Shown here: piece after piece, positions 7,045 through 22,770 of the stretch | How the letters are laid out: every line of letters begins with the position of its first letter | Numbering within the stretch: position 1 is the stretch's first letter | Origin: Candidatus Zhuqueibacterota bacterium | GTDB taxonomy: Bacteria; Zhuqueibacterota; Zhuqueibacteria; Zhuqueibacterales; Zhuqueibacteraceae | NCBI GenBank assembly: GCA_003576975.1 | Contig: QEVD01000020.1 | Location: forward strand, 1 to 62,339 | DNA length: 62,339 nt | Direction of reading: 5' to 3' | Notes under the pieces: generated by a model | What the model was told of the DNA's origin: nothing | What the model saw: only the letters and a program-made list of their open reading frames with translations | The model's database searches: none | Translations under genes and position numbers: made by a program

Positions 7045-8040
7045 TTAGCCAGCGTATTTGAAAATTGGATCTGAATTGTTTCGTCCAGCGGGTTTTGTAA
7101 TCCGAATCACCGCGCATAAAATTGAATTCGTTCACGCCGGAATGGAAACAGCGCTGAATAACCTCGGCCAACAGAACCTTCGAAGGAGAAAGCTTCTGGT
7201 GAGCGGAATCAAAACCGATATTCCAGTAATAAAAAATCTTCCTGAAATGAAATCCCAAGACAAAGGCGATCGGCTTCTTGTCAAGCAGTAAATAAAACAG
7301 CCGGATTTCGCCAAACCTTTTCAGCTCTTCCATCATGGCGGCAATGAACCGCCGGTAACGATCACTGGCATAGTATGAGCTGCGCGCCTTACGCGTCTGG
7401 CTGCAATGATGCAGGAAGTAAATGGTTTCAATCTCTCGGTGAATATCAGTCAAAGGCGATTCCACCACCTCCCAGTTTTTGTCGCGGAGATGATTGTGCA
7501 AACGTCGCAGATCCTGCTGAACAAAACTTTTGCTGGTGGTGGCATAATATTGTTCCGGGTATCGATGTAATAACACTTCGTTTGCTCACGCACAATCGCA
7601 CTTTCACGAACGAGAATATCTTTCAAGGCGTACAGGTTGGGAGACGTATCGGAAATATTGTGAAACAGCATCTCACCCCAAGTTAGCCGACTACGAAGCC
7701 TTGCGAAAATCGCACGAAGGGCTTGTTCCCGGTGACGCGCCACAATGAAGTCAGAAAAATCCGATTCGGGATCGCCCAGAAAAAGAACCTGGCGATAGGG
7801 AAGCATACCCCTCAGGCGAATTGTACGCACTTGCAGAGGCGCAAACCCGATAGTATCGTTCCCCTCGCGAAGGCGCAGAACCAACAAATCTTTCTTTGCC
7901 AAAAAGTGGGCGGCCCAAGTGTAGAGCCATTCATGCCGGAGATGAATGCTTTCAGAACCGGAAGCGGCAAGCAGATCATTCCATTCCTCGCGCAGGCTCG
8001 CAAACTCGGCAAGTGTGTCAATGCGTTCGATATGAATCAT
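6953..8040 (-). pseudogene. GNAT acetyltransferase of the CelD/BcsL/FemAB-like type, interrupted by a -1 frameshift
   Basis: Two overlapping open frames encode consecutive halves of one protein. The 5' half (8040 down to about 7560) starts MIHIERIDTLAEFASLREEWNDLLA and reads SIHLRHEWLYTWAAHF, typical of the N-terminal lobe of PF13480-like acetyltransferases. The 3' half reads YYATTSKSFVQQDLRRLHNHL, then ends with SPSKVLLAEVIQRCF and FNFMRGDSDYKTRW, the conserved acceptor end of the family. Reading YIDT then PEQYYATTSKSF restores the protein; this needs one extra base in the G run at 7557-7559 (plus strand). The result is either a disrupted gene or a sequencing indel. By family it would move an acyl group to a sugar amine or hydroxyl in the polysaccharide pathway. 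Confidence 0.8.
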
Positions 8041-9614
8041 CGGGTCCTGCCGCGAAAGAACTTGCGGTGGAGGGCATGCACAACCACCAAATCATCGGTG
8101 TCAAGACGAAGCATATACACCGTTGCAGCATAAACACACCAGAAAATGACAAGCTGCAGAAACCAAAGCGGCGGCGCTACTAAAAACCATTCGCTCCGCA
8201 AACCGAGCACACCCAACAAGGCAAGTCCGGCGGCAAAGGGTACTTTCCACAAGCTTGCTTTGAAGGGGTGAATGTTGAGAAAATGGCGAACCTCAAACAA
8301 GCGCACCACGTTGATGACACAATGCGTGACCGCATAAGCAAACGCAGCGCCCACGATACCTTTACGAGGGATCAAAAGAAGATAGAGTGTTACACTAAGC
8401 ACCGTGATCACAACGGAATTGGCAAGATTGACGCCCGGCTTGCCGATCATGGTCAGCACTTGCCCGCTCATGCCGAACATATCGGCAAAAAAATTTCCCA
8501 CACCGAGGATGAGGAGGGCTGCCACTGCGCCGTGAAATTCTTTACCAAAAATGCTCAAGATCGGCTCGTAAAACAATACGATCGTCAAGAAAATGGGGAG
8601 ACTAAATGCCGTGGTCCATTTCGTCACGGTTTTGTAGAGTTTTGCCATTTCGTTGTGCTGCCGGCGGGCGTGCAACTCAGCCACAATGGGGCCGAAGATC
8701 TGCATGATGGCCGTGTGCGGCATGTAAATCAACGGTTGCAGGCGTAGCGCAACTGCATACAAGCCCACTTCCAGCGGCTGACAGAACATGCCCAAAAAAA
8801 CCACATCGAGTTGAAAGGTGTGCTTGTTGAACAGGCTGGTGGCAAACAGCGTGCTCGAGAATTTCCACAACCGTTTTTTCTCGGTGGTGGCCGGCAAGCT
8901 GCGCTCACGCAGGCCGGGAAAAACTTTGAGAAGAAATGTTCCAGCCAAAACGAGAACGATCAAATCCTGCAACAGGCTGGAGGCCAGCGCGGCATAAAGC
9001 TCAAAGCCAAAGGCAAGCAAGACCACCAGGCTGATCAACTTCGTTAAATTGGCGACAACAGCGTTGGTCAGAACGACATAACCCTGCTGTTGCAAACCAT
9101 TGAGCGCCGCAATAAAGATGCTGTAAAGCGCAGTGAACAGAATGGCGATGCTCACAAACCGAAATGCCGTCGCATACTCCGGCTGTTTGATCACATAACG
9201 GCAAAACGGTTCGGCAAACAGCGCAAGCCCGAGCGCCAGTACACTGCCGGCGATAAATGCAATCTTGAGCGACAGCAGAATCGCGCCTTTGGCTTTGTCG
9301 AGCCGGCCTTCGCCCTTGTAGCTGGCGGAAAAACGATTGAGCATGCCGGCAAAACCCAACGTGGAAAAATCCGCCAGCATGCTAGTCCAATACGTGGTGA
9401 GGGTATAGATGCCATACAGCTCGGCGCCCAGCGCTCGCGTGGTGATGATGCCGGTTATGGGTCCGAGAACCTGGCTGAGCAGTTGCCCGCCGGCAGTGAT
9501 GCCTGCATTTTTTGCAATTTTCTTGAGGTAGCCAGCGGTGTCGGTGCCAACCGGCGTCTCAGTCGCCGCAGTTGCCGCTACACGTACGGTTGCTGTATCA
9601 TGGCTCAATTGCAA
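8037..9614 (-). CDS. Oligosaccharide flippase (Wzx-like, MATE/MVF superfamily)
   Basis: A 525-residue inner-membrane protein with about 12-14 hydrophobic helices, the length and pattern of Wzx/RfbX flippases that turn lipid-linked repeat units to the periplasmic face. After an Ala/Thr-rich cytosolic N-terminus (about 30 residues), the segment KNAGITAGGQLLSQVLGPITGIITTRALG (about 35-63) is the typical first helix with the conserved LG-x-x-x-Y-G pattern nearby (GAELYGIYTL). The start overlaps the end of the methyltransferase gene upstream by 10 nt, and its end overlaps the GNAT start by 4 nt. It belongs with the polysaccharide part of the operon. It is not a peptide exporter; the ABC protein upstream fits that role. 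Confidence 0.87.
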   Translation of the reverse strand: MQLSHDTATVRVAATAATETPVGTDTAGYLKKIAKNAGITAGGQLLSQVLGPITGIITTRALGAELYGIYTLTTYWTSMLADFSTLGFAGMLNRFSASYKGEGRLDKAKGAILLSLKIAFIAGSVLALGLALFAEPFCRYVIKQPEYATAFRFVSIAILFTALYSIFIAALNGLQQQGYVVLTNAVVANLTKLISLVVLLAFGFELYAALASSLLQDLIVLVLAGTFLLKVFPGLRERSLPATTEKKRLWKFSSTLFATSLFNKHTFQLDVVFLGMFCQPLEVGLYAVALRLQPLIYMPHTAIMQIFGPIVAELHARRQHNEMAKLYKTVTKWTTAFSLPIFLTIVLFYEPILSIFGKEFHGAVAALLILGVGNFFADMFGMSGQVLTMIGKPGVNLANSVVITVLSVTLYLLLIPRKGIVGAAFAYAVTHCVINVVRLFEVRHFLNIHPFKASLWKVPFAAGLALLGVLGLRSEWFLVAPPLWFLQLVIFWCVYAATVYMLRLDTDDLVVVHALHRKFFRGRTR

Positions 9615-10405
9615 TTTTTAAAGACGAATACGATTTTATGTGAAAACAACTTTACCGGGTTCGAAATAACAACCGGCTTGGCAATTGCTTTAAAGGTTGT
9701 GAACAACTCCACGTCCTGAAAGTGCTTTTTGCCAAGGCGATAAATGCGATTAAAACTGCAAAAATATTGATGCGTTGGATCATCCGCGAACAACCGGCCG
9801 ACTTTGTGAATTAACCACGGTTGACGTCGCGTTGCCTCTTTCGGCAAAGGCGCCGTTGACTCGTTTGGGTAGGTCTCCGAAGCAGCTTGATGCGGTTTTT
9901 TGCCGTTTACCCCAAATGCCGGAATTCGTCCGAACAGACTCAGAATACGGTGGGAGAAATCATAGTAACGCTTGATGGGATAGTTCGGTGTTGAACCGAC
10001 AACAACGCCGTTCGGTTTGAGCACGCGTGCAATTTCATGCAACAGCGGCTCCACTTCCAGCTCGGGAATATGCTCAATGACTTCAAAGAAGATGATCGCA
10101 TCAAAGGCTCGATCGGCATAAGGCAGGCGAAAACCATCAACCTTTGCGCAGGTGAAACCTTTTTTGTTCACTCGGTCGACACGAATCTGGCTGATCTCCG
10201 TTCCGAACAAGTCCCGCTTGGGAAGCGATTTGGCCAAATACTCCAGATGCTGACCATCGCCACAGCCGAGATCAAGTACCTTCATTCCAGGTTTGATATA
10301 CGTGTCCATAACATATCTGCGAGAGGCAGGTATATAACCATGCATGCGATGTGTTATGGCATAGCGCTCAAAATCCAAACGAGCAATCTTAGCGGTGCTA
10401 GTCAT
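9605..10405 (-). CDS. Class I SAM-dependent methyltransferase
   Basis: A 266-residue methyltransferase with motif I VLDLGCGDGQHLEYLA (residues about 43-58), an acidic motif II in LFGTEIS, and motif IV DAIIFFEVIEHIPELE. This VIEHI signature is typical of UbiG/Methyltransf_11-type enzymes. RVLKPNGVVVGSTPNYP follows at the expected place. The C-terminal third (residues about 185-266) is less conserved and may bind the acceptor. The 4-nt overlap with the nucleotidyltransferase-like gene upstream suggests coupled translation. It could act on the lasso peptide or on a sugar; position between the two gene sets does not decide this. Confidence 0.82.
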   Translation of the reverse strand: MTSTAKIARLDFERYAITHRMHGYIPASRRYVMDTYIKPGMKVLDLGCGDGQHLEYLAKSLPKRDLFGTEISQIRVDRVNKKGFTCAKVDGFRLPYADRAFDAIIFFEVIEHIPELEVEPLLHEIARVLKPNGVVVGSTPNYPIKRYYDFSHRILSLFGRIPAFGVNGKKPHQAASETYPNESTAPLPKEATRRQPWLIHKVGRLFADDPTHQYFCSFNRIYRLGKKHFQDVELFTTFKAIAKPVVISNPVKLFSHKIVFVFKNCN

Positions 10406-11646
10406 AAAGAATCAGTACGGGGAGATGAAATGATCGGGTTTCGCTTGGCGGTGAACATTGGCACTGCGACGACATCATTCCACATGAAACGGACAGGCCG
10501 AAATACGGGATAAAGGAAGGATAACCGACTTGGTAACAAAATAAATTTGAAATCGCTAAACGTCGGCGTGATCACCCGCCGCCAGCAAAAACTCACGCGA
10601 TCGCGCCAGCGCTCTCGAGCATTGAGTAAGAATGAAAACTTGGCAGCGGCGCTGGGCTCCCATTCGGCTTCCGGAAAAAGGCCGGCATGAACGCGGGCGG
10701 CAAGGCCGGAAACGTTAGGTTCAGCGCTGAGATTCGCGGCGGCCGCGGGCAGTTCTGCGCCAAGTAATTGGTGCACCAGGTGAAGCCCCACGCCCAGCAA
10801 ACGCTGGCAACCGCAGCGTTGCGCTTGTGCTGTCACGTATTGCCAATCAAGCTGAGGCGCGGTGCGCAAGAGTTCTGCGACATCGCAAATCCAATTCAAA
10901 CCAAACCACAGATGCTTGCCGCCATGAAGGCACAGAATCAACAGTAAATCTTCGGGTGAAAGTTGATTGATGGTCTGGCCCGCCAGCGTTGCGGTTTGCA
11001 TGCGCTGCCAGATGAGGTCGAGATCGAGCGGCAACGCAAAATATTTACGCATGAAATCCCAATGCAAGTCCACGGAAATGTTGTTCTGCTCTTGCACGAA
11101 TGTGTAGCCGCATTCATAACGCAAATAAGTCGCTTCCTGCCCGGAAGAGAGAGTTTCCCACGGGCGAAAACCGTGGGCGAGCAGCAGGGCTTTGGCGGCG
11201 TGAAAATCACTGGCCTCGATGAGTATGTCCAAATCTTCGGATTCACGCAGCGCAGGATCGCCATAAAGCGCGGCAGCCATGGCCGGACCTTTGAAGGGCG
11301 CAGCAGCAATGCCATGATCTGCCAGCAGGCGCAACACTCGCAACAATTCGCTCAATTGAAACAGGCTTTGGTGCGCTAGCGTTGCGCTTTGCCTGCGCAA
11401 TTGCTCGAGCACAGTTTCCGGAACCAGGTTTGCGGGAAGTTGCTTGAGCTGGAGCATCAACAGACGTGTGACGCGATGCCAGGAAGCCAGCCACAACAGA
11501 TAATCCCAATCCAGCTTTTGCATGAGCAGAAAACGCAGGCGCTCGGCGACGGCAGAATCCATTTGTGTGCGGCTGCACGCCAGCAAGACCGCAATTTCAT
11601 GGCGGCGCGGATGCGGCGCGGAGTATATGTCAACCTTTGAGCGCAT
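10402..11646 (-). CDS. Nucleotidyltransferase-like protein of lasso-peptide clusters (NTP_transf_5 type)
   Basis: A 414-residue protein whose central segment reads PFKGPAMAAALYGDPALRESEDLDILI (residues about 112-138). This is the fold signature of the PF14907-like nucleotidyltransferase group, with the metal-binding acidic pair in DLDI. The N-terminal part (FLLMQKLDWDYLLWLASWHRVTRLL) is a helical region usual in this group, and LCLHGGKHLWFGLNWICDV is also family-typical. Homologues are known to sit in lasso-peptide clusters next to HPr-kinase-like genes, where they are thought to modify the peptide; that link is established for the family, the reaction here is unknown. The start codon shares one base with the ABC gene's stop (TGATG). 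Confidence 0.78.
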   Translation of the reverse strand: MRSKVDIYSAPHPRRHEIAVLLACSRTQMDSAVAERLRFLLMQKLDWDYLLWLASWHRVTRLLMLQLKQLPANLVPETVLEQLRRQSATLAHQSLFQLSELLRVLRLLADHGIAAAPFKGPAMAAALYGDPALRESEDLDILIEASDFHAAKALLLAHGFRPWETLSSGQEATYLRYECGYTFVQEQNNISVDLHWDFMRKYFALPLDLDLIWQRMQTATLAGQTINQLSPEDLLLILCLHGGKHLWFGLNWICDVAELLRTAPQLDWQYVTAQAQRCGCQRLLGVGLHLVHQLLGAELPAAAANLSAEPNVSGLAARVHAGLFPEAEWEPSAAAKFSFLLNARERWRDRVSFCWRRVITPTFSDFKFILLPSRLSFLYPVFRPVRFMWNDVVAVPMFTAKRNPIISSPRTDSL

Positions 11647-13466
11647 CAGCGATATTGCCGCGCTTGCGTTTCAAAAAGTTGCGCATAAACGCCGTCACGC
11701 GCAAGCAATTGTTCATGCGTGCCGTTTTCTGAGAGGCGGCCATCTGCTAACACATAAATATTATCCGCCAGACGAACCGTGGACAGGCGATGGCTGATGA
11801 GCACGGTGGCGCGATTCTTTGCCAGCTTCCGAAAGCGTTGAAAAAAAGCGAACTCTGCTTTAGCATCGATAGCGCTGGTGGGCTCATCGAGCACGATGAT
11901 TTGCGCGTCGCGCAGAAATGCGCGCGACAGCGCGATCTTTTGCCATTCACCAATGCTCAGTTCCTCCCCATCTTCAAACCATTTGCCCAGCACGGTTTGA
12001 TAACGCGCCGGCAGCTTGGCAATGACGTGATCGGCGCCGGCATGTTGCGCGGCAAGAGGAATTCGTTCATGCTGCAGCGGCAAGGCGACATTGCCCAGCC
12101 AAATGTTTTCCTGCGCCGTCAAATTGTAATGCGCATGATCCTGAAAAATGACGCCGATCTCACGGCGTACTTCATCGCTGGCGTAATCGCGCAGATCAAC
12201 GCCGTCGAGCGTGATGTGGCCGGTGGTGGGATCATACAAGCGACACAGCAATTTGATCAATGTGGTTTTGCCGGAGCCGTTCTCTCCAACGAGGGCGATG
12301 GTCTCCCCCGGTCGCAAGCTGAGATCAATATCTTGCAGCGCGATTTTGGAGGATTCCGGATAGCGAAAACTGACGCCGTGAAATGCAATGCCGGTTCGCA
12401 TCGGGCGCGGGAACGGCCGCGGTTGCTGCGACTCCGCCACACGCGGCTTCAGTTCCAGGAATTCATCGAGATTCGAAAGGAAGAGATTGTCTTGATAGAG
12501 ATTGGCAACGGCTTGTAACAAGTCTCGAAAAAAACTTTGGCCGCGCACGAAGGCCTGCCAGTACATGACCAGGGCGCCGAGCGTGAGCAAACCGGCGATG
12601 GTTTGATGCGCCATGAAGGCGCAGGCGCCGAAAACCGCCAGAGTTGCGAGAACTTGCGGCGCAAGCTCGGCAAACGCGCTTTTCGTTGCAATCGCCAAAC
12701 GCTCACGGCGAATGGTTTCACGCAGGGCGCGAAAGCGCTGCATGAAAAGCGGGCCAAGATTGAACAGGCGAACTTCTTTGGCATATTCGCCGCTGGTGAG
12801 CATCCAATTGTAATAATACGCCCGGCGTTCACTGGCGGTCCAGTGACGTTGCCAGCGATACGCTTGATCCGCATATTTCAGTCGAACCCAAAGTCCGGGG
12901 AGGGTGGCGAGAAACAAGAGTGAAGCGAGCGTCGCGTTATAAGAAAAAAGCAGTCCGGCAATCGCCAGCAACGAAAGGCCGCTTTGTCCGGCTTGCATCA
13001 GGCTGTTGACGATGCTTTGCGGGCGAAACGGGGCATCCTGTTGCGCGCGATGCAGTGCGTCGTAATAATGCGCATTCTCATAATATTCCAAATCAACGGC
13101 GAGAGATTTGGCATGCAGCATCTCGTGCATGCGATCGGTGATCAATTGCGCTTGCGCCTGGTTGACAAAGCTGGTCAGCGAGCGGCAAATTTCCGCGAGT
13201 AAAGCCACCGCGCCAGCAAGCGCAACCCAGAGCGCGGCCGATTGCCATGCGGCATTTTTATCGGAGGCGCTGAGCGCCAGAGTGACGGCATCGATGATTT
13301 GTTTGGTGAGATAAAGGCTCGCGACCGGCAACGCGCTTTGCGTCAGCAACAAGGCGAGATTGGCGAGCATCCAGGTGCGGGCGTTCTGCCAAACGAGACG
13401 CACCGCGCGATCGAGACGCAGAGCATGGCGCAGCTTGCGCCGGGTTGATTCGTGGATGAAGAGCAT
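11646..13466 (-). CDS. ABC transporter, fused permease and ATPase (probable lasso-peptide exporter, D protein)
   Basis: A half-transporter of about 606 residues: five or six membrane helices, then an ATPase domain. Walker A is GENGSGKTTL, the signature is LSIGEWQ (a known LSGGQ variant), and Walker B is IIVLDEPTSAID followed by the H-loop ISHRLSTV. No C39 peptidase domain is present, as expected when a separate B2 enzyme removes the leader. The reading frame extends upstream to 13610, but that part translates a dispersed palindromic repeat. The first sensible start is the ATG at 13466, just before HESTRRKLRHALRL. Such transporters export mature lasso peptides; the location between the tailoring genes supports this. 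Export of a lipid or glycan remains possible. Confidence 0.8.
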   Translation of the reverse strand: MLFIHESTRRKLRHALRLDRAVRLVWQNARTWMLANLALLLTQSALPVASLYLTKQIIDAVTLALSASDKNAAWQSAALWVALAGAVALLAEICRSLTSFVNQAQAQLITDRMHEMLHAKSLAVDLEYYENAHYYDALHRAQQDAPFRPQSIVNSLMQAGQSGLSLLAIAGLLFSYNATLASLLFLATLPGLWVRLKYADQAYRWQRHWTASERRAYYYNWMLTSGEYAKEVRLFNLGPLFMQRFRALRETIRRERLAIATKSAFAELAPQVLATLAVFGACAFMAHQTIAGLLTLGALVMYWQAFVRGQSFFRDLLQAVANLYQDNLFLSNLDEFLELKPRVAESQQPRPFPRPMRTGIAFHGVSFRYPESSKIALQDIDLSLRPGETIALVGENGSGKTTLIKLLCRLYDPTTGHITLDGVDLRDYASDEVRREIGVIFQDHAHYNLTAQENIWLGNVALPLQHERIPLAAQHAGADHVIAKLPARYQTVLGKWFEDGEELSIGEWQKIALSRAFLRDAQIIVLDEPTSAIDAKAEFAFFQRFRKLAKNRATVLISHRLSTVRLADNIYVLADGRLSENGTHEQLLARDGVYAQLFETQARQYR

Positions 13467-13520
13467 GCAGGGGGCAAGGGGCAAATTGCAAGAGGCAAAA
13501 AGAAAAAAGTTGAACGGATC

Positions 13521-13595
13521 GCTTCGACAGGCTCGGCCAGCGTTGCCTGAGCTTGTCGAAGGCAGCGGTGTTGGCTTCGACAAGCTCAGCCACCG
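13521..13595. repeat. Dispersed palindromic repeat with CTTCGACA(A/G)GCTC arms
   Basis: The arms CTTCGACAGGCTC (from 13522) and GAGCTTGTCGAAG (to about 13561) face each other, and a further copy of TTCGACAAGCTCAGCCACC follows to 13595. The unit can fold as a stem of about 13 bp with one G-T type mismatch. It lies between the PRMT-like gene and the exporter gene and falsely extends the exporter reading frame. A related string, ACTTCGACAAGCTCCAGG, occurs near 62122-62139 inside the terminal partial gene. Confidence 0.7.
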
Positions 13596-13643
13596 GTTAT
13601 CCAACAACAACCAACAACCAACGACCTACCGGCCGCCTCCACC

Positions 13644-14792
13644 CTACTCGCTGTAAAGCAACGACAGCTCTCCGACGCGCGTTAGAGCAGCGGGCCAGGT
13701 TGGAAAATGCTGCGGGAATTGTTGCGTCAGGTCTCGCGCGATGTCACCCAGAGCCTGTTTTTCACTCATCTTATGCAAAACAACCTGGGTAATTTGGCCG
13801 TCGTCATTCAGGCTGGGCACAAAATTGTCTGCGCGTTTGCGTAAGTGCTGCGGTGAAAGCGGCGCGCTGAAAAACGTGGATTGTTGAAAATCGATCTTGG
13901 GTTTCACGCTGTTTTCAGCAGCAAACACGCGCGAGTTCCAGCTCCAGATATAATCGTTGTCCACGAGATTAGCCTGCACACGCACAACAACTTCGTCGCC
14001 GGCAGCAAGCTCCACCGGCTGCGGCCAAGGAAAATAAGCGCGACCATAAATCATTTTGGGATTGCCAGGGGCGTTGGAAAACTGCACGCCATCTGCTAGC
14101 GTCGCATCAAACCAAAGGCCGAGACCATGAGCCGTGCCCGGTGAAGTAATCTTCCAGCTTAGCTCGCCTGAGAGATTCGGTTCCCGCACCGTGCGATAGT
14201 CGAGCGTCGCCCAGCATTGCGGTTCCACTAGCAGTTCTTCGGCGGTAATGTCAACGCGGCGCCAAGCATTGGCAAGCAGGCGCGAACAGGCTTGAGTATT
14301 GAGGCCAAAGAGATCGTCTTGCCAGGGCCGGAAATGGCGCTCGTAATGCGCCGGGGCGGAGAGCAGCGCGGCCCACAGCGTGTCCCGTTGCGGAATGAGC
14401 ACGCCGCCGGGCGCGAGCAAGCGTTCGCGGGCATCGAGAAGCGACGGGATGTGCTGCTCCAGCAAGGGCAGCACCCCGCGCAAATCCGAGATAATGACAT
14501 CTGCGCGCTCGGGCAAACTCACGCGCGTCGAAAGCCCTTGGATGAAGGTGATGCGATCGGTATAACCGTTGGCCGCGGCCATCTCGCGCGCCACTTGAAT
14601 CGCATTATTGTACTCAATGGCATAAACCCGGGCCGCGCCGAATTTGCATGCGAGCAGCGTGAAGAGACCTGAGCCGGCGCCCAGATCAATCACAACCGCG
14701 CCGGGCTTGACAGCCTGACGCACCGCTTGCGTGTACGCTTCCATGCGCACACGGTCTACAATCATGTCGCCGTAATCAAAAATGCTGTACAT
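13644..14792 (-). CDS. PRMT/L11-methyltransferase-like SAM-dependent methyltransferase (lasso tailoring candidate)
   Basis: A 382-residue protein with a PRMT-like plan. YSIFDYGDMIVDRVRMEAYTQAV matches the N-terminal helix that closes over SAM in arginine methyltransferases. VVIDLGAGSGLFTLLACKFGAARVYAIE is motif I with post-I acid. ADVIISDLRGVLPLLE stands where the PRMT double-E loop would be, but the first Glu is replaced by Asp, so classical arginine methylation is not certain. The C-terminal half (about 190-382) is a beta-rich domain. An AAGGAC ribosome site lies about 9 nt before the ATG. It follows the HPr-kinase-like gene by 15 nt. Since two predicted cores contain Arg, the peptide is a plausible substrate; this is inference. 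Confidence 0.75.
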   Translation of the reverse strand: MYSIFDYGDMIVDRVRMEAYTQAVRQAVKPGAVVIDLGAGSGLFTLLACKFGAARVYAIEYNNAIQVAREMAAANGYTDRITFIQGLSTRVSLPERADVIISDLRGVLPLLEQHIPSLLDARERLLAPGGVLIPQRDTLWAALLSAPAHYERHFRPWQDDLFGLNTQACSRLLANAWRRVDITAEELLVEPQCWATLDYRTVREPNLSGELSWKITSPGTAHGLGLWFDATLADGVQFSNAPGNPKMIYGRAYFPWPQPVELAAGDEVVVRVQANLVDNDYIWSWNSRVFAAENSVKPKIDFQQSTFFSAPLSPQHLRKRADNFVPSLNDDGQITQVVLHKMSEKQALGDIARDLTQQFPQHFPTWPAALTRVGELSLLYSE

Positions 14793-14807: not shown

Positions 14808-15830
14808 TCAGGTGGGAGATTTTTGGTTGTGTGCGTGCGTTTGAAAATCATCAATGATGGCGGCGCACAGCTCCGGCAGCCGGGCGGGATCGGTATGCGC
14901 TTTCACACGCCGCATGGGCACATGCCTCGCCACGCGGCTCAACACTTGAAACTCCAGTGCGCGTTGTTGCGGGTTGATGACATTCGCCGCGTAGCTGTTT
15001 GCCAGCAAGGCCAGCAAACCCTCGCGCGCGGAAACTTCTGCAACTGCGGGCGCACTGGCGCAACGCTCATCCAAAATATAAATCGCTGCGAGCGGTGATT
15101 CTTGTGTGTGAAATTTATACGCCTCGCGGGTGAGATCGAGGCCGCGTTTTTCCCAGGTGGGCGTGAGACAGGGCAACGCCTCGGGCGAACCGAACAGCGC
15201 ATCCACCGAAGACGGCCATAGCCGCAAACAGGGATAGCCGGGTTGCGTCAAGAAATGATCGCGTTGATCTCGCAACGGCACGACGTCATCAGAGAGCACG
15301 GGATAACCCAGGCGCGCAAACATGGCGGCGGTGGTGGATTTGCCTGCGCCCGAAGGCCCGAGCAACGCGATAGCCCGATCCTTAATGGCAACTGCGCTGG
15401 CATGCAGGCAAGTGATATTCCGCAATGCCAAAACAAATGCCATGATCGGGCCAACGAGATATGTCACGGCATCTTCGTACGTCGTACTCTCCCGCCAGGT
15501 CATGCCGATCACACTGCCGGCGCGATCGACGAGAAACTGCACGCCATCCTCGAAGCTCAGGCGAAAATAGTCGCCGCACACGCCGCGATGTATTTTTAAA
15601 GCAGGCGTGCCTTGCTCATCTGTTTCCGCGCTGACATAGAATACAAGCTCGGCAGTGGGGGTAATATCGCACAGTTCCGGCGGCATGGCGTTCAACCACA
15701 CCCGCACGTCGCCCGGCATGACCGCCGCCGGCGCTGCCGCCACCAACCCGGGAATGGGAAGGTTGGAATGCAAACGCAGGCCATAAAGAGAATAGTCACA
15801 CCACAAATCAGGGTTCAGCTTTAGACTCAC
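14808..15830 (-). CDS. HPr-kinase-like lasso peptide tailoring kinase
   Basis: A 340-residue HprK-related protein. It opens with the fold seen in lasso-cluster kinases, WCDYSLYGLRLHSNLPIPGL. The P-loop is LLGPSGAGKSTTAAMFARLG (residues about 169-188), and YPVLSDDVVPL follows, containing the acidic pair after Walker A used for catalysis. LHASAV before the P-loop is also family-typical. Related kinases in other lasso clusters phosphorylate the precursor or core peptide (family knowledge). The start is GTG at 15828-15830. It overlaps the stop of precursor gene three by 3 nt (GTGA arrangement), which implies translational coupling to that precursor. The true carbon-catabolite HPr kinase is unlikely, since no HPr gene or DNA-binding partner is near. 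Confidence 0.85.
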   Translation of the reverse strand: MSLKLNPDLWCDYSLYGLRLHSNLPIPGLVAAAPAAVMPGDVRVWLNAMPPELCDITPTAELVFYVSAETDEQGTPALKIHRGVCGDYFRLSFEDGVQFLVDRAGSVIGMTWRESTTYEDAVTYLVGPIMAFVLALRNITCLHASAVAIKDRAIALLGPSGAGKSTTAAMFARLGYPVLSDDVVPLRDQRDHFLTQPGYPCLRLWPSSVDALFGSPEALPCLTPTWEKRGLDLTREAYKFHTQESPLAAIYILDERCASAPAVAEVSAREGLLALLANSYAANVINPQQRALEFQVLSRVARHVPMRRVKAHTDPARLPELCAAIIDDFQTHAHNQKSPT

Positions 15831-15982
15831 TGCAATCTCGTAAAATTCAAGCGGCCCTGCGTGGCATTATCCAGCCTGCCGTCAGCAGCGGTCATCCGGG
15901 TAATTTGCTGGATTGTGCCATAGGTTATCAGTTGCGGAGGTTGATAGTTTTTTTTCTCAGGCTGCTTTTTTGTCGGTGGCAT
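15827..15982 (-). CDS. Lasso peptide precursor 3 (51 residues)
   Basis: A small gene missed by length filters. The leader (residues 1-29) has Y13, P16, L18, G22 and T28, an exact fit to the lasso leader pattern YxxPxLxxxGxxxxxT. Thr at the minus-2 position predicts cleavage after Arg29. The core then begins MTAADGRLD, giving a nine-residue ring closed on Asp9 in line with the two sister precursors. A core starting with Met is unusual; other known rings start with Gly, Ala, Ser or Cys. The tail ends FTRLQ. The stop codon overlaps the GTG start of the kinase gene, so the two are made together. The ribosome site is weak (TTTGAG about 9 nt before ATG). Confidence 0.78.
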   Translation of the reverse strand: MPPTKKQPEKKNYQPPQLITYGTIQQITRMTAADGRLDNATQGRLNFTRLQ

Positions 15983-16054
15983 TGGTGTTTCTCAAAGTTT
16001 GTGGCATGCGTGCATTCCAGGCAACCAGACCTGGTTGCGAACAACAACATGATC

Positions 16055-16150
16055 TCATGCCGGTCGGGGCAAATACCATCGGTATTCCGCCGTCGGTGTG
16101 ATTTCGCAAATCGCACCTTGTGCAAATATCAATCGATTTGTTAGATAATG
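16055..16150 (-). pseudogene. Decayed lasso precursor copy
   Basis: Between precursors 2 and 3 the minus strand still encodes HYLTNRLIFAQGAICEIT, close to the leader end NYISPRLLTYGAIREIT of precursor 2 but with one codon inserted and the key Pro lost. Immediately afterwards a different frame reads DGGIPMV, similar to the DGGTVMG stretch after the ring Asp in precursor 2. The ring-coding segment between them is missing. There is no in-frame start with a ribosome site. This fits a duplicated precursor that has lost about 20 bp and its frame. Similarity is short, so the call is moderate. Confidence 0.5.
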
Positions 16151-16221
16151 CAAGGGTGCGTCCGATGCGGTTTCTGCAATTAAGCCGTTCAAGCGAATCA
16201 GAAGTTGATTCGCCAAGCATC

Positions 16222-16374
16222 TCATGCGATACCGGATCTTCTCATTCCCATAACTGTCCCGCCATCCAACATTTTTACGGAGCCTACAGATTGTGTAATT
16301 TCACGAATCGCACCGTAGGTCAGCAATCGCGGGCTAATATAGTTCTTTTTTAGGATTTTCTTGGTCGCTTTCAT
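16222..16374 (-). CDS. Lasso peptide precursor 2 (50 residues)
   Basis: The leader (residues 1-28 from the second of two adjacent ATGs) shows Y12, P15, L17, G21 and T27, an exact YxxPxLxxxGxxxxxT pattern used by B1/B2 proteins for recognition and cleavage. Cleavage after Gln28 exposes Ser1 of the core SVGSVKMLD, where Asp9 can close a nine-residue macrolactam. The post-ring part starts GGTVMG and ends SGIA, with a double Arg in the tail. AAGGGA lies a few bases before the first ATG (16377), and the second ATG gives better spacing. The core is clearly paralogous to precursor 1 (both have ML-D-GGTV), so the pair arose by duplication. Confidence 0.87.
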   Translation of the reverse strand: MKATKKILKKNYISPRLLTYGAIREITQSVGSVKMLDGGTVMGMRRSGIA

Positions 16375-16588
16375 CATCGTTCCCTTTTCATACTAGGTGT
16401 TTTGCTACCATACCCGGTATACTGTTGCCGTGAAGTTTGTCGGTGCAACTCCTTGTGAAGCGGTGTTTTCGCCAACCGGTCCACGAGGGCAGCGTGATTA
16501 CAATCAGGGTCACAGTATGCCGTTGAATTAATTTGATGCGTCTTGCCTCCTCTCTCTCTTCTCCAAAAGAGGTTGTGACGCCTCCCGT
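16375..16588. other. Spacer between lasso precursors 1 and 2
   Basis: About 210 bp with no convincing gene. An open minus-strand frame (16374-16592) translates to Arg/His-rich protein without leader motif or ribosome site, and its start overlaps the end of precursor 1. No copy of the YGAIRE leader segment is found here. A near-palindrome ATACCCGGTAT lies at about 16410-16420. Its role, if any, is unknown. Confidence 0.4.
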
Positions 16589-16738
16589 TCATAGCGAGGC
16601 AACGCTTCGCTTCATCATATTCACAGTACCACCGTCAAGCATCATGTAAGGGCCAACTGCTTGCGTGACTTCACGTATGGCGCCGTAAGTCGTAAAGCGC
16701 GGGCGTTGATAAGCCTTTTTCTCGAGATTAGTTTTCAT
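16589..16738 (-). CDS. Lasso peptide precursor 1 (49 residues)
   Basis: It starts MKTNLEKKAYQRPRF and carries Y10, P13, F15, G19 and T25, the lasso leader pattern with Phe in the Leu place. Cleavage after Gln26 frees Ala1 of the core AVGPYMMLD; Asp9 would close the ring on the Ala1 amine. A seven-residue ring starting at Gly29 is the alternative, but the Thr at minus 2 and the sister peptides favour Ala. The tail starts GGTVN, contains Lys-Arg and ends VASL. A GGAG ribosome site lies about 6 nt before the ATG. The gene starts 23 nt after the cyclase stop, so it is co-transcribed with the maturation genes. Confidence 0.88.
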   Translation of the reverse strand: MKTNLEKKAYQRPRFTTYGAIREVTQAVGPYMMLDGGTVNMMKRSVASL

Positions 16739-16761
16739 GAGCATCTCCAAAAGGTCAAGAA

Positions 16762-18594
16762 TTAGTTAAGGTGATTCAACCGCTGTAACCAGCAGTTCAA
16801 ACCGAGAGGGCGAAGGTGAATACTCGGATCACCTTGTTCGAATTTTCTTCCCGCAACTTTGGGAATGTTAACGCGCTGCACAAATTCCGACAGCCGGGGA
16901 AGTGGAACAAATTCATCGAGCCAGCGCGCGTCCGGCCGTTGCAGTAAATTGACCACCGGATCCTCTTGCAACGGCGTTTTGGGGCGCCGCAGCACTTTTT
17001 CCGGCAGGATGCCGTTCATCGCGAGGCGTAACATTCCTTTTTCAACGAACCAGGGCAAGGGCGGAATGGCTAATGCAAAGTCCACCAGACGCAAATCCAA
17101 AAACGGCAATCGGAACTCGAGCGGGGCCAACGTTACACTCGCATCATTGTACTCGAATACGCTTTGCCACAGCGGCATGGCCAAGCGGTGATACGCTTCG
17201 GGACGCAAGCGATGCCTGACCGGCAGTTTCATATGATTGATTTCGTTCCAGCGGGCTCGCAACTGGCAACGGGACGCAAAACGTTCATCCAGCCACCCGG
17301 GAAAATCAACTTCAGGATGAGGCCGCTTGCGCCAATTCCGCAGCTTTTTGCACAAGCCCAGCCCCAAAGGCGGCATTCTGCGATACGTACGCAGATACTG
17401 TGCGGCATCAAACAGGGTCTGCCACATTCGCATGCCTTTCAGCATCTGCGCCAGACCGGACGGAAACAACAACTCATCGCCGCCGTCGCCGGTCAACACC
17501 ACATGGCCGCCGGCGGCACTGACACGCATTTGATCGGCATGTAAAGCCAACAATGGCTCTTCCGATGGCTCCGGCCGCTGTAACTCCGGCTGATCATAAC
17601 GCTCAAACAAGCGGTAATGATCTCCCACCAAAAATTGTGTCGGTATGCCGAGTTTTTTACTGACGAGATCCGCAAAATAGCGTTCATCGTCGGGAATCAA
17701 TTGCTCATAGACGACGGTCATTCCCGCAAGTTCGGCGGGCTGGCCTTTCTCGAGCATATGCGCGCGTGTGACCGCTGCAATCGTCGCAGAGTCGAGGCCG
17801 CCGCTCAACCAAATGGTGAGACGATCGGTGCGCAGACGATCAGCCACGGCTTGTTGCAACAACGCTTGAAAATGATCAAGGTAATCTTGCGCATGCTTGT
17901 AACGAATGCTTTCCGGAACCGGCAACGTCCAATAACGCCGCACCGAGAGCCGCTCCGGGGTAATGCTCAACGCGTGACCTGCCGGCAGCCTTTTAATATC
18001 TGCAAAGCTGGTCGTGGTTAGATCATAATTGCATCCGAACAATAAAAAATCACCAATCGCGCGATCGTCCAGGCAATCACTAACCTGCGGATGCCGGCGC
18101 ACGCAATTGAGCGTGTTGCTCAATACAATGGTTTGGCCGACGCAGGCATAATAGAGCAACTTCAAGCCGAATTGATCGCGGGCGCAGAAAAGGCGCTGCT
18201 GGCGTTGATCCCAAATGATAAAGGCAAAATCGCCGAGCAAATGCTGCACACACTCTTCGCCCCAAACGTGATAAGCATGCAAAATCAATTCAACGTCATT
18301 GGCTGCTTCGACCTCACGCCGGCCGTGTGAGGCCAGCCGTTGTTTGAGCGCTTGACGATCATCGATGCGCGCGTCCGCGGTAATCCAAACCCGGCCGTCG
18401 AGACTGCACGGTTGCTGCTCGTGCTGTGACTCAAATGTCGTGCGCAACATGGCGTGACCCAAGCCCACATTGCCGTCTTGCCAGGAAGATTGCGCATGCG
18501 GCCCGCGAAACGCCATGAAGTTCGTCAACTTCTGCAGCAGTCCACCGTCAACTGGCGCGCCGTCTTTATTGAAAATGCCGACGATTCCGCTCAT
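16762..18594 (-). CDS. Lasso peptide cyclase (asparagine-synthetase-like, C protein)
   Basis: About 610 residues with the AsnB plan. The start is the ATG at 18594 giving MSGIVGIFN; the frame extends further upstream, but this would overlap the B2 gene strongly. Residue 2 is Ser where glutamine-using AsnB has Cys, so the N-terminal domain cannot release ammonia, which is the rule in McjC-like cyclases. The synthetase half has the PP-loop WLSGGLDSATIAAV and LTGDGGDELL. It would adenylate the ring Asp carboxylate and join it to the core N-terminus. The start overlaps the B2 stop by 4 nt (ATGA). Together with B1, B2 and three precursor genes this assignment is strong. Confidence 0.9.
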   Translation of the reverse strand: MSGIVGIFNKDGAPVDGGLLQKLTNFMAFRGPHAQSSWQDGNVGLGHAMLRTTFESQHEQQPCSLDGRVWITADARIDDRQALKQRLASHGRREVEAANDVELILHAYHVWGEECVQHLLGDFAFIIWDQRQQRLFCARDQFGLKLLYYACVGQTIVLSNTLNCVRRHPQVSDCLDDRAIGDFLLFGCNYDLTTTSFADIKRLPAGHALSITPERLSVRRYWTLPVPESIRYKHAQDYLDHFQALLQQAVADRLRTDRLTIWLSGGLDSATIAAVTRAHMLEKGQPAELAGMTVVYEQLIPDDERYFADLVSKKLGIPTQFLVGDHYRLFERYDQPELQRPEPSEEPLLALHADQMRVSAAGGHVVLTGDGGDELLFPSGLAQMLKGMRMWQTLFDAAQYLRTYRRMPPLGLGLCKKLRNWRKRPHPEVDFPGWLDERFASRCQLRARWNEINHMKLPVRHRLRPEAYHRLAMPLWQSVFEYNDASVTLAPLEFRLPFLDLRLVDFALAIPPLPWFVEKGMLRLAMNGILPEKVLRRPKTPLQEDPVVNLLQRPDARWLDEFVPLPRLSEFVQRVNIPKVAGRKFEQGDPSIHLRPLGLNCWLQRLNHLN

Positions 18595-19031
18595 GGCTGT
18601 GTGCTTTCCAAGGCCGGCAACAAGGTGTAGCGCGCGAGATCCTCGGAATCTCCGATCACGATATTCCCGCCGCATTCCAGCCAGGCATGCGCCTGCAGAC
18701 GCCCGGCTCCATCTTTGGCGACTCCGATCTGCATGCGCGTGGCGTAACCGTGTCGTTTCAGCCACACCTGCGCTGCCAGCGCCTGCGTGAGGCAGGTAGC
18801 GCGCGGCACAAACGCGCTTAGTACCTTAAGCGCGCGAATCATGCGATTGCCGTAGTACGGGTCCAATTTATGACGCGCCGGCGTTGCAGAAAAATGCGCC
18901 AACCAGGATTGCAGGCGTTGAAACGGCAAGAGCCAGAGTCCCATGCGTACGGATATTAGCAATAAATATGCCTTCACCCACAAACGTTGCTCCACGACTG
19001 GAAGCCGGAGGAATTTAACTATACGCACCAT
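18591..19031 (-). CDS. Lasso peptide leader peptidase (B2, transglutaminase-like)
   Basis: A 146-residue protein matching the C-terminal half of McjB (transglut_core3 type). PRATCLTQALAAQVWLKRHG holds the catalytic Cys, and LQAHAWLE holds the catalytic His; the following VIGDSEDL offers the acidic third member. The N-terminal part (LRLPVVEQRLWVKAYLLLISVRMGLWLLPF) is the usual hydrophobic helix. It cleaves the leader after the residue following the conserved Thr. It overlaps the B1 gene by 17 nt and the cyclase gene by 4 nt. B1 and B2 being separate genes is the common arrangement outside Proteobacteria. Confidence 0.9.
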   Translation of the reverse strand: MVRIVKFLRLPVVEQRLWVKAYLLLISVRMGLWLLPFQRLQSWLAHFSATPARHKLDPYYGNRMIRALKVLSAFVPRATCLTQALAAQVWLKRHGYATRMQIGVAKDGAGRLQAHAWLECGGNIVIGDSEDLARYTLLPALESTQP

Positions 19032-19332
19032 CAGCGTAATTTGCCAAACCGGCTTGTACGAGTTGTTGCAGTAATGTCATCACATCGCGCTCGCATTGCT
19101 CCGGCGCCACTTCGTATTCGGTCAAAATCGCGTCGCGAATCTCGCCGACTGTGCGTGGCTGTTGGATCAAATGCCACACGCGCGCCCCGACTTCATCGAG
19201 GCCGTGATACACGCCGGAGGCAACATTTAAGATCACAATTTCGCCGCCGAGATCGGAAAAAATTTGATCCCTGGCGGCGACGACACGCGTGTTTCCGGAA
19301 AGGTTGGTTCCATTATGCCATTCTCCTTGCAT
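19015..19332 (-). CDS. Lasso precursor recognition protein (B1, PqqD-like RRE)
   Basis: A 105-residue PqqD-family protein. The beta strands in DLGGEIVILNVASGVYHGLDEVGARVWHLI, followed by helices TVGEIRDAILTEYEV and CERDVMTLLQQLVQAGL, form the winged-helix fold that binds the leader of the precursor peptide, usually through its Tyr and Pro residues. No catalytic residues are expected. It overlaps the antiterminator gene by 20 nt at its start, so the antiterminator and lasso genes are linked in one transcript. The position directly before the B2 gene makes the lasso assignment better than a PQQ or sactipeptide role. Confidence 0.87.
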   Translation of the reverse strand: MQGEWHNGTNLSGNTRVVAARDQIFSDLGGEIVILNVASGVYHGLDEVGARVWHLIQQPRTVGEIRDAILTEYEVAPEQCERDVMTLLQQLVQAGLANYADGAYS

Positions 19333-19879
19333 GCGTAGCTGTCCCGACGGCTCTCCCTGTGAGCTTGCTCGGTGGTGAAATTTTTCTCATCTGGCTATGT
19401 TCGATGTTGATGGCCACAGCCTGGCCGATGGCCTCGAACGCAATGACGAAGCGTTGCCGGCCCTGCACCGATTGCAGCACGCCGCGCAGGCCGATCAAAG
19501 GTCCGCTGGTGATCTCAAGCAAATCGCCCGGCATCACATGCGGAATCGGCTCCGGATCAAAATCGTGCGCCAGCATGTTCTTGACGGCGGTAATTTCGAA
19601 TTCAGGAATGATCGAGGGCTGGCCGTGATGTCCCAGCATGCGCACGACGCCCTCCGGCGTTAACGCGAGCAAGCGTTCTTTGGCATCGGCTTTCACAAAA
19701 ACATAGCAGGAGAACAAGGGCGCTTCGATCCATTTTTTGCGATCACTCCACTGCCGCAGGGTGGCGCGCAGGGGTAAATACGGCTGCACGCCCATTTTTT
19801 GCAGCTCTTGTTCGACACGTTTTTCAAAATTGGGACGCGTGTAAAGGGCGTACCAGTTGCGCATTGGGTCTTGTTGCAT
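19313..19879 (-). CDS. UpxY-like transcription antiterminator (NusG paralogue)
   Basis: A 188-residue NusG-family protein. RNWYALYTRPNFEKRVEQELQKMGVQPYLPLR is the NGN domain start (residues about 7-39), PLFSCYVFVKAD continues it, and PGDLLEITSGPLIGLRGVLQ (about 118-137) is the KOW motif. Members such as UpxY and RfaH ride with RNA polymerase and prevent early termination of long capsule operons. It is the second gene of the operon, the usual place, behind the kinase gene. The last 20 residues (KLTGRAVGTATHARRMA) are not conserved and overlap the lasso B1 gene. It likely makes expression of both the lasso and polysaccharide genes processive. Confidence 0.88.
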   Translation of the reverse strand: MQQDPMRNWYALYTRPNFEKRVEQELQKMGVQPYLPLRATLRQWSDRKKWIEAPLFSCYVFVKADAKERLLALTPEGVVRMLGHHGQPSIIPEFEITAVKNMLAHDFDPEPIPHVMPGDLLEITSGPLIGLRGVLQSVQGRQRFVIAFEAIGQAVAINIEHSQMRKISPPSKLTGRAVGTATHARRMA

Positions 19880-19960: not shown

Positions 19961-19969
19961 GGAACATTT

Positions 19970-22366
19970 TTACGACCACGGCCAGGAGAGCAGTTTCCGC
20001 TGCGTTTTCGGCAGCTTGCCGTTGCTGTTCTGCGTGTAGTAATGATAATGATAGTAATAGTAATAACTGCCGTACATGCTCTCGACTTTAACCGAGTTCA
20101 AGAGCGTGCCCAACACCTTGGCCTTCACCTGATTGAGCAAGGCATAAGAACGAAAAGCGGCTTCTTTGCTGGTATGTCCCGCTTTTACGACCAGGAAAAC
20201 TCCATCTACCCATCGCGCTAGTACAGCCGCATCGGTCACAGCAATCACCGGAGGGCTGTCAAACAACACCACTTCATAGTCCTGTTTCAAGGCCTCCAGG
20301 GTGCGCTGCATGGCGCTGCTGCCCAACAGTTCCGAAGGATTTGGCGGCAACGCGCCGCACGGCATAATGTGAAGATTTTCGATATCTGTCGGCGAAACCG
20401 CCTCGGCAATATCTGCGCGGCCGACCAATACATTTGACAAACCTACGCGCCGGTCGAGATTGAATACCGTATGCAAAACCGGCCGCCGCAAATCGGCGTC
20501 GATCAACAACACCTTGCTGCCCATTTGTGCCATGACGATGGCAAGATTCGCAACCGAGGTCGATTTGCCGTCGCCCGGCCCCGGACTCGTCACCAGCAGT
20601 GTGCGCAATGTTCTGTCAATGTGCGTGTATTGAATATTCGTGCGCAACGCGCGATAAGCTTCGGAAATGGGCGATTTCGGCGCAACATGCGTGATCAAGC
20701 GCGCCGCGGTGGGCTGTTGCTCAAGCTTGTTTTCAATTGCGGAGACTTTACCGTTGGAAAGTCCATGGTGGACGCCGTTGGGTGCGCCGTTTTTCGAAAT
20801 CTTCAGCCGCGCCAGCGTTTCCCCTTCTTTGATCATCGGAATCGAACCGAGCACCGGCTGGCCCATGCGCTCCAAATCTTCCATCGTGCGCACGGAATTA
20901 TCCAGCATATCGAGCAGAAACGCCAGGCCCACGCCCAGGCCGAGACCGAGAATCATTCCCAGAATAATGTTGAGCTTTCGATTCGGGCCTAACGGAGTCT
21001 CCGGCAACTCCGCCGGCTCAATGATGCGTACGTCCCCGAGTTGGCCGACTTCTGTGATGCGCAACTCTTCGTACTTCTCTTTCATCATTAAAAAAATCTT
21101 CTCATCCACTTGCGCTGAGCGTTGCAGCCGCACCATCAGCAGCTTTTTCTCGGGCAGAGATTCCAGTTTCTTGGCATAATCATCGACGATGTGCTTGAGT
21201 GAAGCGACTTTTGGTATGAGCGTCTCAATGTTCGCTTCCACCTCGAACTTGCGCATGAACATCTCGTCCTGCAGATTCGCGGGGCCGCCCAAACCTGCGG
21301 CCGTAAAGCTGGCCAGTTCGGCGCGGAATTTCTGCGTCAAGCGTTCAATTTGACCATCCAATTCCTGCAGCCGTGCATTATTTTCATCGAGCCTGCCGTT
21401 TTGCGCGAGATAAGCGAGATATGCCGCGCGCTGCTGTTGCAAGTCGGCCATTTCTTTTTTCAACTCGTCCAAGAACGAGGTTGCGGAAATGGCGGCAATA
21501 TCACCCCGCTTTCCCAACTGTTGGTCGATAAACTTCAAACGTTCACGCGCCGCCTCCAGATCAGCCAGTGATTCTTTATATAGCGATTCGAATTCCACCA
21601 GTTTCGTCACCAGGCCGTTGGTTTCGTCCGTAAGCGTCATCGGCGTTTCGCCCTTCAGATAATCCTTCAACGCCAGCTCGGATTCCGCCAATTGTTGTTG
21701 AATCACGCCCAATTGATTCTCCAAAAAGTTTTTGACCTGGCGCACTTCCGCCTGGCTCATGGCGCGGTTAAGCTCGCTGTACGCTTCGACGTAGGCATTG
21801 GCGATAATCATGGCCTCTTGCGGATCTTCCGAAACCACACTCAACAAAATCATGTCGGTGCTGCGAATCGGCGCCACGCTGATATAACCCGGCAACTCAC
21901 GCGCAACGGTTTCCACCTCCAGCAAAACGGGCTCTTGCATTTCGTTTCTGGAATCATCCGCCGCGCTGCTGCCGAACAGCGCGTTGAGAAAGCGCGAGAA
22001 GCGGCCGGAGCGGCTTTGCAAGTGTTTGTTCGCCCCCAAAATCGGCAGTTCATGTGCCTGCTCTGATTGCATCAGTTTTTGCGCCACAGCTTTGGCCAGG
22101 GCGCGACCGCCAATGATCTCGACCTGATTGCTGATCATCGTTTCGGTTTGCCAATACCCCATCGCTTCGAAACCGGGCAAGCCAATGTTCGATTCTGTTT
22201 TGAACATGACTTTGGCGCTCGCCTGATACAACGGCACGGCTGTCATGCCCAAATACACGGTAATAGCCATCACGGCGAGAAATGAAGCCAGGATGATCCA
22301 GCGGCCGCGATAAAGCACGCGGAGATAATCCGCGAGGGGCGTCTGTCGGGCAATTTTTTCTTTCAT
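19970..22366 (-). CDS. wzc: Polysaccharide co-polymerase and tyrosine autokinase (Wzc-like)
   Basis: About 798 residues from the ATG at 22366 (a GTG ten codons earlier is possible). A Wzz domain with one helix near the start (RWIILASFLAVMAITVYLG) is followed by long coiled coils in the periplasm (residues about 200-440), a second helix near NIILGMILGLGLGVGLAFLLDML, and a cytosolic BY-kinase domain. Walker A is SPGPGDGKSTSVANLAIVMA, Walker A' is VLLIDADLRRP and Walker B is VVLFDSPPV. The tail ends in a tyrosine cluster (YGSYYYYYHYHYY), the autophosphorylation site. It controls chain length and export of the exopolysaccharide. It is the first gene of the operon, behind a leader of about 380 nt and a sigma-54-like promoter. 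Confidence 0.92.
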   Translation of the reverse strand: MKEKIARQTPLADYLRVLYRGRWIILASFLAVMAITVYLGMTAVPLYQASAKVMFKTESNIGLPGFEAMGYWQTETMISNQVEIIGGRALAKAVAQKLMQSEQAHELPILGANKHLQSRSGRFSRFLNALFGSSAADDSRNEMQEPVLLEVETVARELPGYISVAPIRSTDMILLSVVSEDPQEAMIIANAYVEAYSELNRAMSQAEVRQVKNFLENQLGVIQQQLAESELALKDYLKGETPMTLTDETNGLVTKLVEFESLYKESLADLEAARERLKFIDQQLGKRGDIAAISATSFLDELKKEMADLQQQRAAYLAYLAQNGRLDENNARLQELDGQIERLTQKFRAELASFTAAGLGGPANLQDEMFMRKFEVEANIETLIPKVASLKHIVDDYAKKLESLPEKKLLMVRLQRSAQVDEKIFLMMKEKYEELRITEVGQLGDVRIIEPAELPETPLGPNRKLNIILGMILGLGLGVGLAFLLDMLDNSVRTMEDLERMGQPVLGSIPMIKEGETLARLKISKNGAPNGVHHGLSNGKVSAIENKLEQQPTAARLITHVAPKSPISEAYRALRTNIQYTHIDRTLRTLLVTSPGPGDGKSTSVANLAIVMAQMGSKVLLIDADLRRPVLHTVFNLDRRVGLSNVLVGRADIAEAVSPTDIENLHIMPCGALPPNPSELLGSSAMQRTLEALKQDYEVVLFDSPPVIAVTDAAVLARWVDGVFLVVKAGHTSKEAAFRSYALLNQVKAKVLGTLLNSVKVESMYGSYYYYYHYHYYTQNSNGKLPKTQRKLLSWPWS

Positions 22367-22754
22367 GCTGAACTGGGTTGAATCAAAACGGCGCACACAG
22401 CGCGTTGCATGCGCAAGTCATACAGCAGGTTTCGAGTCCATTCTGCTGCTGAAATTGGTTTATTTGATTGAATCGTGACTATTCCAAAATGCGATATTCT
22501 AGACGATGCTCCTGCAACGGTTTGGCTGTGGTATTATGGCTCTCAGAACTCTCATGCTCTCAAGATTTTATCGACCCGCGCCGTGCCACGGTCGGAACAT
22601 TTTCAGATGGACATGAAATGCTTCGTCCAGGCACAGCTCCGCCATGTCAGTCCCATTTTGTACAATGGGCATCACAGCCAAACCTCGTTACTTCACTTTG
22701 CTTCAGAAACAACCAGACACACAACACCCGTCGTTACAACTCCACTTCACCAAT

Positions 22755-22770
22755 GGCAAAGCCAGTGCCA
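22755..22770 (-). promoter_or_regulatory. Sigma-54 (RpoN)-type promoter for the polysaccharide/lasso operon
   Basis: The minus strand reads TGGCACTGGCTTTGCC, matching the consensus TGGCAC-N5-TTGCA with only the last base differing. GG and GC are correctly 10 bases apart. Transcription would start near 22744, leaving about 380 nt before the wzc ATG. Such promoters need an NtrC-type activator; one is encoded at 55205-56560 in this window, but no direct link is shown. Confidence 0.6.

Follow-up and report, generated by a model that had tools for sequence, protein, structure and literature searches.

We analysed a 62,339-nt stretch of contig QEVD01000020.1 from Candidatus Zhuqueibacterota bacterium (the window), and found a lasso-peptide cassette within an exopolysaccharide operon. 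The genes on the minus strand are, in order, Wzc, UpxY, B1, B2, cyclase, three precursors, HprK-like kinase, methyltransferase, MsbA-like ABC protein, PF14907 nucleotidyltransferase (NTase), methyltransferase and Wzx-like flippase. Beyond the flippase follow a split FemAB-like gene, a methyltransferase, one gene without a family, a glycosyltransferase and an asparagine synthase. The features are listed below from upstream to downstream.

22756..22770, minus strand: sigma54-like promoter TGGCAC-N5-TTGC (TGGCACTGGCTTTGC), upstream of wzc; 15 nt invariant in four congeners
22632..22648, minus strand: 17-base leader element GACATGGCGGAGCTGTG, candidate UpxY recruitment site; exact 17-mer, always just upstream of wzc
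19970..22396, minus strand: Wzc-like polysaccharide co-polymerase/tyrosine autokinase (TIGR01007 above cut-off; PF13807, PF02706)
19313..19879, minus strand: UpxY-family NusG paralog, an antiterminator (NF033644, 133.7 bits, cut-off 100)
19015..19332, minus strand: B1, PqqD-like RiPP recognition element (PF05402, E 7e-21; NF033536, 77.7 bits, cut-off 80)
18591..19031, minus strand: B2 leader peptidase (NF033537, 91.8 bits, cut-off 33; PF13471)
16762..18594, minus strand: AsnB-like lasso cyclase (best model NF033535, 378 bits, cut-off 525; PF00733)
16589..16750, minus strand: precursor 1, core AVGPYMMLDGGTVNMMKRSVASL (leader motif and D9)
16222..16377, minus strand: precursor 2, core SVGSVKMLDGGTVMGMRRSGIA (leader motif and D9)
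16055..16225, minus strand: probable degenerate precursor, weak, between precursors 2 and 3 (31-nt match to the precursor of congener G001)
15827..15982, minus strand: precursor 3, core MTAADGRLDNATQGRLNFTRLQ (leader motif and D9; stop overlaps the HprK start)
14808..15830, minus strand: HprK-like kinase (TIGR04352, E 5e-7; catalytic residues invariant in congeners)
13644..14792, minus strand: PRMT-like methyltransferase (E 1e-26 to PRMT6; motif YGDMIxDxVRxEAY)
11646..13610, minus strand: MsbA-like ABC exporter (PF00005, PF00664, TIGR02203)
10402..11646, minus strand: PF14907 nucleotidyltransferase, PsmN/LppN-like by role (E 3e-66)
9605..10405, minus strand: methyltransferase that opens the downstream polysaccharide block (PF08241; overlaps NTase and flippase)
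8037..9614, minus strand: Wzx-like flippase (PF01943)

From the coordinates, the overlaps are 20 nt at upxY/B1, 17 nt at B1/B2, 4 nt at B2/cyclase and 4 nt at precursor 3/HprK, and further downstream 1 nt at ABC/NTase, 4 nt at NTase/methyltransferase and 10 nt at methyltransferase/flippase. The joints without overlap are those between the precursors (211 and 239 nt), between the kinase and the methyltransferase (15 nt) and before the ABC gene (33 nt). Polysaccharide genes lie on both sides of the cassette on the same strand, and likewise in the congeners G001 and G002. A preliminary description of this DNA had proposed a complete lasso locus inside an exopolysaccharide operon, which the families, the coordinates and the gene order in these two congeners bear out. 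It had also described the genes as joined by overlaps or short gaps; most joints do overlap, but the precursors are more widely spaced.

Low-complexity tracts of the GTTGGTTGTTGGT type were observed in the wzc-upxY (19880-19969) and PRMT-ABC (13611-13643) gaps of the window. The wzc-upxY gap of G062, a genome listed as the same species, holds a similar tract, which possibly helps recombination. The FemAB-like gene (6953-8040, minus strand) consists of two overlapping ORFs in different frames and is a single ORF of 355-366 aa in G062 and G002; we read the split in the window as a frameshift or an assembly error. A PADLOC search matched one methyltransferase domain only, and an Rfam search returned no match.

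B1, B2 and an AsnB-like cyclase are all present together, B1 falling 2 bits under the Bacilli-type cut-off of NF033536. Since the best model for the cyclase is the lasso cyclase family but the score stays under its cut-off, we read it as a distant lineage. The cyclase starts with MSGI (not MCGI) and carries an SGGLDS loop, both invariant in three species (that of the window, G001 and G002), and it thus lacks the glutaminase cysteine (Cys2). Looking for a Cys-His-Asp triad in B2, we found Cys80 and His115 invariant among congeners, Asp131 in all of them and Asp128 in the window only.

The three precursors of the window share the leader motif YxxPx[LF]xxYGxIxx[IV]Tx, and the form YxxPx[LF]xxYGxI...T is found in 5/5 precursors from the three species. 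The leader form includes the YxxP motif and the penultimate Thr expected of lasso precursors. All five cores have Asp9, an Asp/Glu being expected at position 7-9 of a lasso core; four of them have Arg18, and position 19 holds Ser in all but one, which has Thr. Their C-terminal residues are L, A, Q, G and P; none is Ser, and Ser/Thr19 is internal. Over 45 residues, precursor 1 shares 76% and 60% identity with the lone precursors found in the two congeners. For the three cores of the window less one water, the calculated [M+H]+ values are 2410.18, 2191.11 and 2431.23. The three precursors of the preliminary description were all found, and to these we add the weak, probably degenerate copy at 16225-16055. 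Its 31-nt match to the G001 precursor was equalled in 0/300 shuffles, with a protein-level p of just 0.006-0.3. A decayed HprK copy was also considered for this stretch because of a CEITPTAE resemblance, which fails at the DNA level (202/300 shuffles as good). Thus, a degenerate precursor fits better.

The tailoring genes resemble those of pseudomycoidin (PsmK/PsmN) and paeninodin (PadeK), in which an HprK-homologue kinase and a nucleotidyltransferase stand beside the lasso core genes. PadeK and PsmK phosphorylate and PsmN adds hexoses, so that the pseudomycoidin kinase/NTase pair attaches a phosphate, then a hexose (PMC9266682, PMC8498205). In the window, the kinase residues His143, Lys164, Asp181 and Asp182 are invariant in congeners and correspond to the His-Lys-Asp-Asp motif described in lasso kinases (PMC9266682). 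NCBIfam HprK_rel_A was tried as the family of this kinase and rejected, its match being far under cut-off. The Asp138-x-Asp140 pair of the NTase is invariant in eight homologues. Unlike PadeK and PsmK, which act on a C-terminal Ser, the kinase here faces cores of which 0/5 end in Ser.

The PRMT-like enzyme has the PRMT N-terminal motif, with Asp103/Glu112 at the double-E pair and MIY/TIY in place of THW. With these two substitutions, the enzyme may not methylate Arg; on the other side, Arg is a plausible substrate since the conserved Arg18 adjoins Ser/Thr19. Precursor 3 is without KRS, and its tailoring may therefore differ. A limited literature search found no report of a PRMT in a lasso cluster. 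Relatives of the enzyme did not appear in viral contigs, and none of the PRMT-like matches on plasmids lay within a RiPP cluster in the annotated regions.

To place the locus among its relatives, we compared the congeners, and found the same order wzc-upxY-B1-B2-C-precursor-HprK-PRMT-ABC-NTase in G001 and G002, with one precursor each. Cyclase identity to these is 57-60%, and at the upxY/B1 joint each of the three species has either an overlap or a gap of 4 nt. The preliminary description had suggested looking for Wzc/UpxY genes around related cyclases, and wzc-upxY indeed adjoin the cassette in both genomes; absence of the arrangement from all relatives would have spoken against it, and two relatives keep it. 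The shared order rules out a chance reading. After the NTase, G001 and G002 carry different sugar genes (GT2, formyltransferase, DegT aminotransferase), then the flippase block again, indicating that the cassette sits at the border of the constant and variable halves of the operon.

Every cassette gene is intact in the three species, and the catalytic residues are kept. This weighs heavily against a decaying or non-functional cassette, which we regard as very improbable even though the precursor array holds a degenerate copy, the FemAB-like gene downstream is frameshifted and G062 has lost the cassette.

In G062 the polysaccharide operon is kept, and its first downstream genes are 97% identical in protein to those of the window. 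There, immediately after upxY comes a fragment of the NTase, its last third, that has no start; the methyltransferase is next, and B1 to ABC are missing. The PRMT-like gene was found nowhere in the G062 genome, and its sole B2 belongs to another system. The broken NTase remnant indicates loss, not ancestral absence. Since Wzc (74%) and UpxY (87%) are far more divergent from the window than the downstream genes, recombination probably replaced wzc-upxY-cassette by a cassette-free version. The retained operon shows that the peptide is dispensable for it and that the coupling is not obligatory.

Among 82 genomes of the phylum, lasso B2 matches were confined to this genus and one other genome. A search of genome contigs for related loci gave only two AsnB-like matches, at 27%. 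The second B2 of the window's genome (G000, contig C208) and those of G062 (contig C45) and G067 were not counted as further lasso loci, because no cyclase match was found at the two loci checked (C208 and C45) and C208 carries a radical SAM gene.

Upstream of wzc, the 15 nt of the sigma54-like site are surrounded by otherwise divergent DNA in the four congeners. The site has one exact match in the window's genome, which encodes the sigma54 factor (rpoN). About 100 nt beyond it lies the leader 17-mer, which each of the four congeners carries exactly once in its genome; no second copy of either element was found elsewhere in the window. From this conservation we infer a sigma54 promoter and an UpxY site. 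The predicted fold of the leader RNA was not exceptional in stability. Terminator-like sites in the region numbered 33 (shuffle mean 27.5, sd 5.9), with no excess inside the operon. Thus start elements were found only upstream of wzc, and the separate promoters and terminators that would have told against the preliminary description did not appear. Since the invariant elements lie there, one transcript from upstream of wzc would be the simplest reading. This operon-like block behind UpxY agrees with the earlier suggestion that peptide and polysaccharide are produced together; that the two are made for each other does not follow from nesting.

NusG paralogs such as UpxY, RfaH and LoaP control long surface-polysaccharide or metabolite operons, and the gene here likewise adjoins wzc of a long operon with a conserved leader element. 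It differs from the other cases in that upxY is the second gene, the operon holds a RiPP cassette, and the recruitment site is a candidate only.

Nesting itself is not new: kinase-type (paeninodin-like) lasso clusters, along with LPP clusters, were described inside capsule loci of Bacilli (Nat Commun, May 2026; PMC13381572). Those clusters are upregulated together with a polysaccharide gene by RT-qPCR and show patchy gain and loss (PMC13381572). Like the window, they combine lasso B1/B2/C, an HprK-like kinase, an NTP transferase and an MsbA-like exporter in a polysaccharide locus. In contrast, the cassette here is Gram-negative, lies behind wzc-upxY with overlapping genes, has no SipW-like peptidase, adds a PRMT-like enzyme and has an acceptor, Ser/Thr19, that is not C-terminal.

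Outside the phylum, relatives were sought on plasmids only. In a PLSDB sample we identified seven lasso loci with an HprK-like kinase and an NTase in or near the cluster (Halopiger, an archaeon; Antarctobacter; Thalassobaculum; Azospirillum oryzae; Butyrivibrio; Priestia; Paenibacillus cellulosilyticus). Polysaccharide genes lay within ~10 kb in 7/7, spanning Bacilli, Clostridia, Alphaproteobacteria and an archaeon; for Priestia the basis is galU and one polysaccharide gene, its NTase being elsewhere on the plasmid. Kinase-free loci, of the isopeptidase type or like it, had such genes nearby in 0/9. The difference gives a Fisher p of 9e-5 in a small sample whose controls all come from Sphingomonadales/Caulobacterales, so that it is taxonomically confounded.

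A comparable arrangement was found in another genus of the same class (G041, contig C588, 1-18980), where a radical-SAM RiPP cluster lies between Wzc and an SLBB gene. This cluster has PqqD, a PRMT, an HprK-like stretch fused to radical SAM, an S26 peptidase, an ABC protein and a PF14907 NTase, with two near-identical Cys-containing precursor-like ORFs (6222-6404 and 5958-6143). Unlike the lasso cassette, it has no lasso B2 or cyclase, and the double-E pair and THW of its PRMT are intact. The two thus differ in ring chemistry but share their location and their set of tailoring/export genes.

These comparisons bear on the main rival reading, in which a phosphorylated lasso antimicrobial is a passenger parked in a recombination hot spot and co-expressed with the polysaccharide without a functional link. 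The loss in G062, the divergence of its Wzc and UpxY as a sign of recombination here, and the patchy distribution in Bacilli (PMC13381572) would all fit. However, the position is the same in three divergent species, the association is seen for the kinase/NTase type and not the isopeptidase type, and radical-SAM chemistry keeps the same company. We consider the passenger reading unlikely, while giving it real weight.

We favour, with some reserve, a kinase/NTase-type (paeninodin-like) lasso cassette that is co-transcribed within the exopolysaccharide operon and whose product is an accessory acting at the surface or in the matrix. The cassette would sit between the conserved wzc-upxY export/regulation end and the variable sugar-assembly end. 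The sigma54-type promoter is the most likely start of transcription, and UpxY, probably loading at the leader element, would keep polymerase moving through the cassette and sugar genes, so that the peptide would be made when the polysaccharide is. B1 is expected to pass the precursors on to B2 and the cyclase for closure of a 9-residue ring between residue 1 and Asp9. In the predicted tailoring, the kinase would phosphorylate Ser/Thr19, the PRMT-like enzyme would methylate a neighbouring Arg/Lys, probably Arg18, and the NTase would put a sugar or nucleotidyl group on the phosphate, before export by the ABC protein. The peptide's most likely place of action is the cell surface or the matrix, where it would serve interaction, protection or signalling while the polysaccharide is being produced. 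Because a relative lost the cassette but kept the polysaccharide genes, it is most likely an accessory, not required for polysaccharide synthesis.

A closer tie was also considered, in which the NTase and the phosphate form a phosphodiester or sugar-phosphate bridge from the peptide to the exopolysaccharide or a lipid carrier. The kinase and NTase of pseudomycoidin add a hexose to phosphoserine (PMC8498205, PMC9266682), LppN was inactive in a heterologous host, suggesting an absent partner or substrate (PMC13381572), and the NTase gene overlaps polysaccharide genes here. Against this, the cassette has its own ABC exporter, no gene resembles an obvious peptide-polymer ligase, and G062 keeps the polymer genes without it. 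We therefore hold this bridge to be improbable. Given the exporter and the G062 operon, nesting does not by itself show that the two products are bound together; of the options in the preliminary description, the peptide may be either bound to the capsule or released with it. Equally doubtful is its fullest form, a phosphorylated, methylated lasso peptide from one UpxY-controlled transcript that the NTase would join to a sugar from the same operon, for display on the exopolysaccharide or incorporation into it, with radical-SAM analogues.

Returning to the accessory reading, the pairing described in Bacilli recurs in this distant genus of Gram-negatives, in an archaeon and on plasmids of Alphaproteobacteria. 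This suggests a peptide that works with the polysaccharide but is not needed for it. New here are the phylogenetic reach, the PRMT-like enzyme, the non-C-terminal acceptor, the operon-start elements and the natural loss. The recurrent polysaccharide-operon home, from Bacilli, Clostridia, Alphaproteobacteria and an archaeon to this genus, directs the search for the role of kinase-type lasso peptides to the cell surface or matrix, and G062 offers a natural comparison. With the PRMT-like enzyme and the internal acceptor Ser/Thr19, lasso tailoring chemistry gains two specific features that can be tested.

Other peptide-modification genes were observed alongside. The locus at C208 and the related one at C45 hold a B2-like gene, an HprK-like kinase, PqqD, an NTase, a formyltransferase and a radical SAM/SPASM-like gene, with no lasso cyclase found; together with a small peptide ending GGIGSTGVTGGIGGF they form a separate peptide-modification system. 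Without lasso genes, Crinalium plasmid pCRI9333.04 carries an ABC-NTase pair, an HPr kinase, a second NTase and PqqD among glycosyltransferases.
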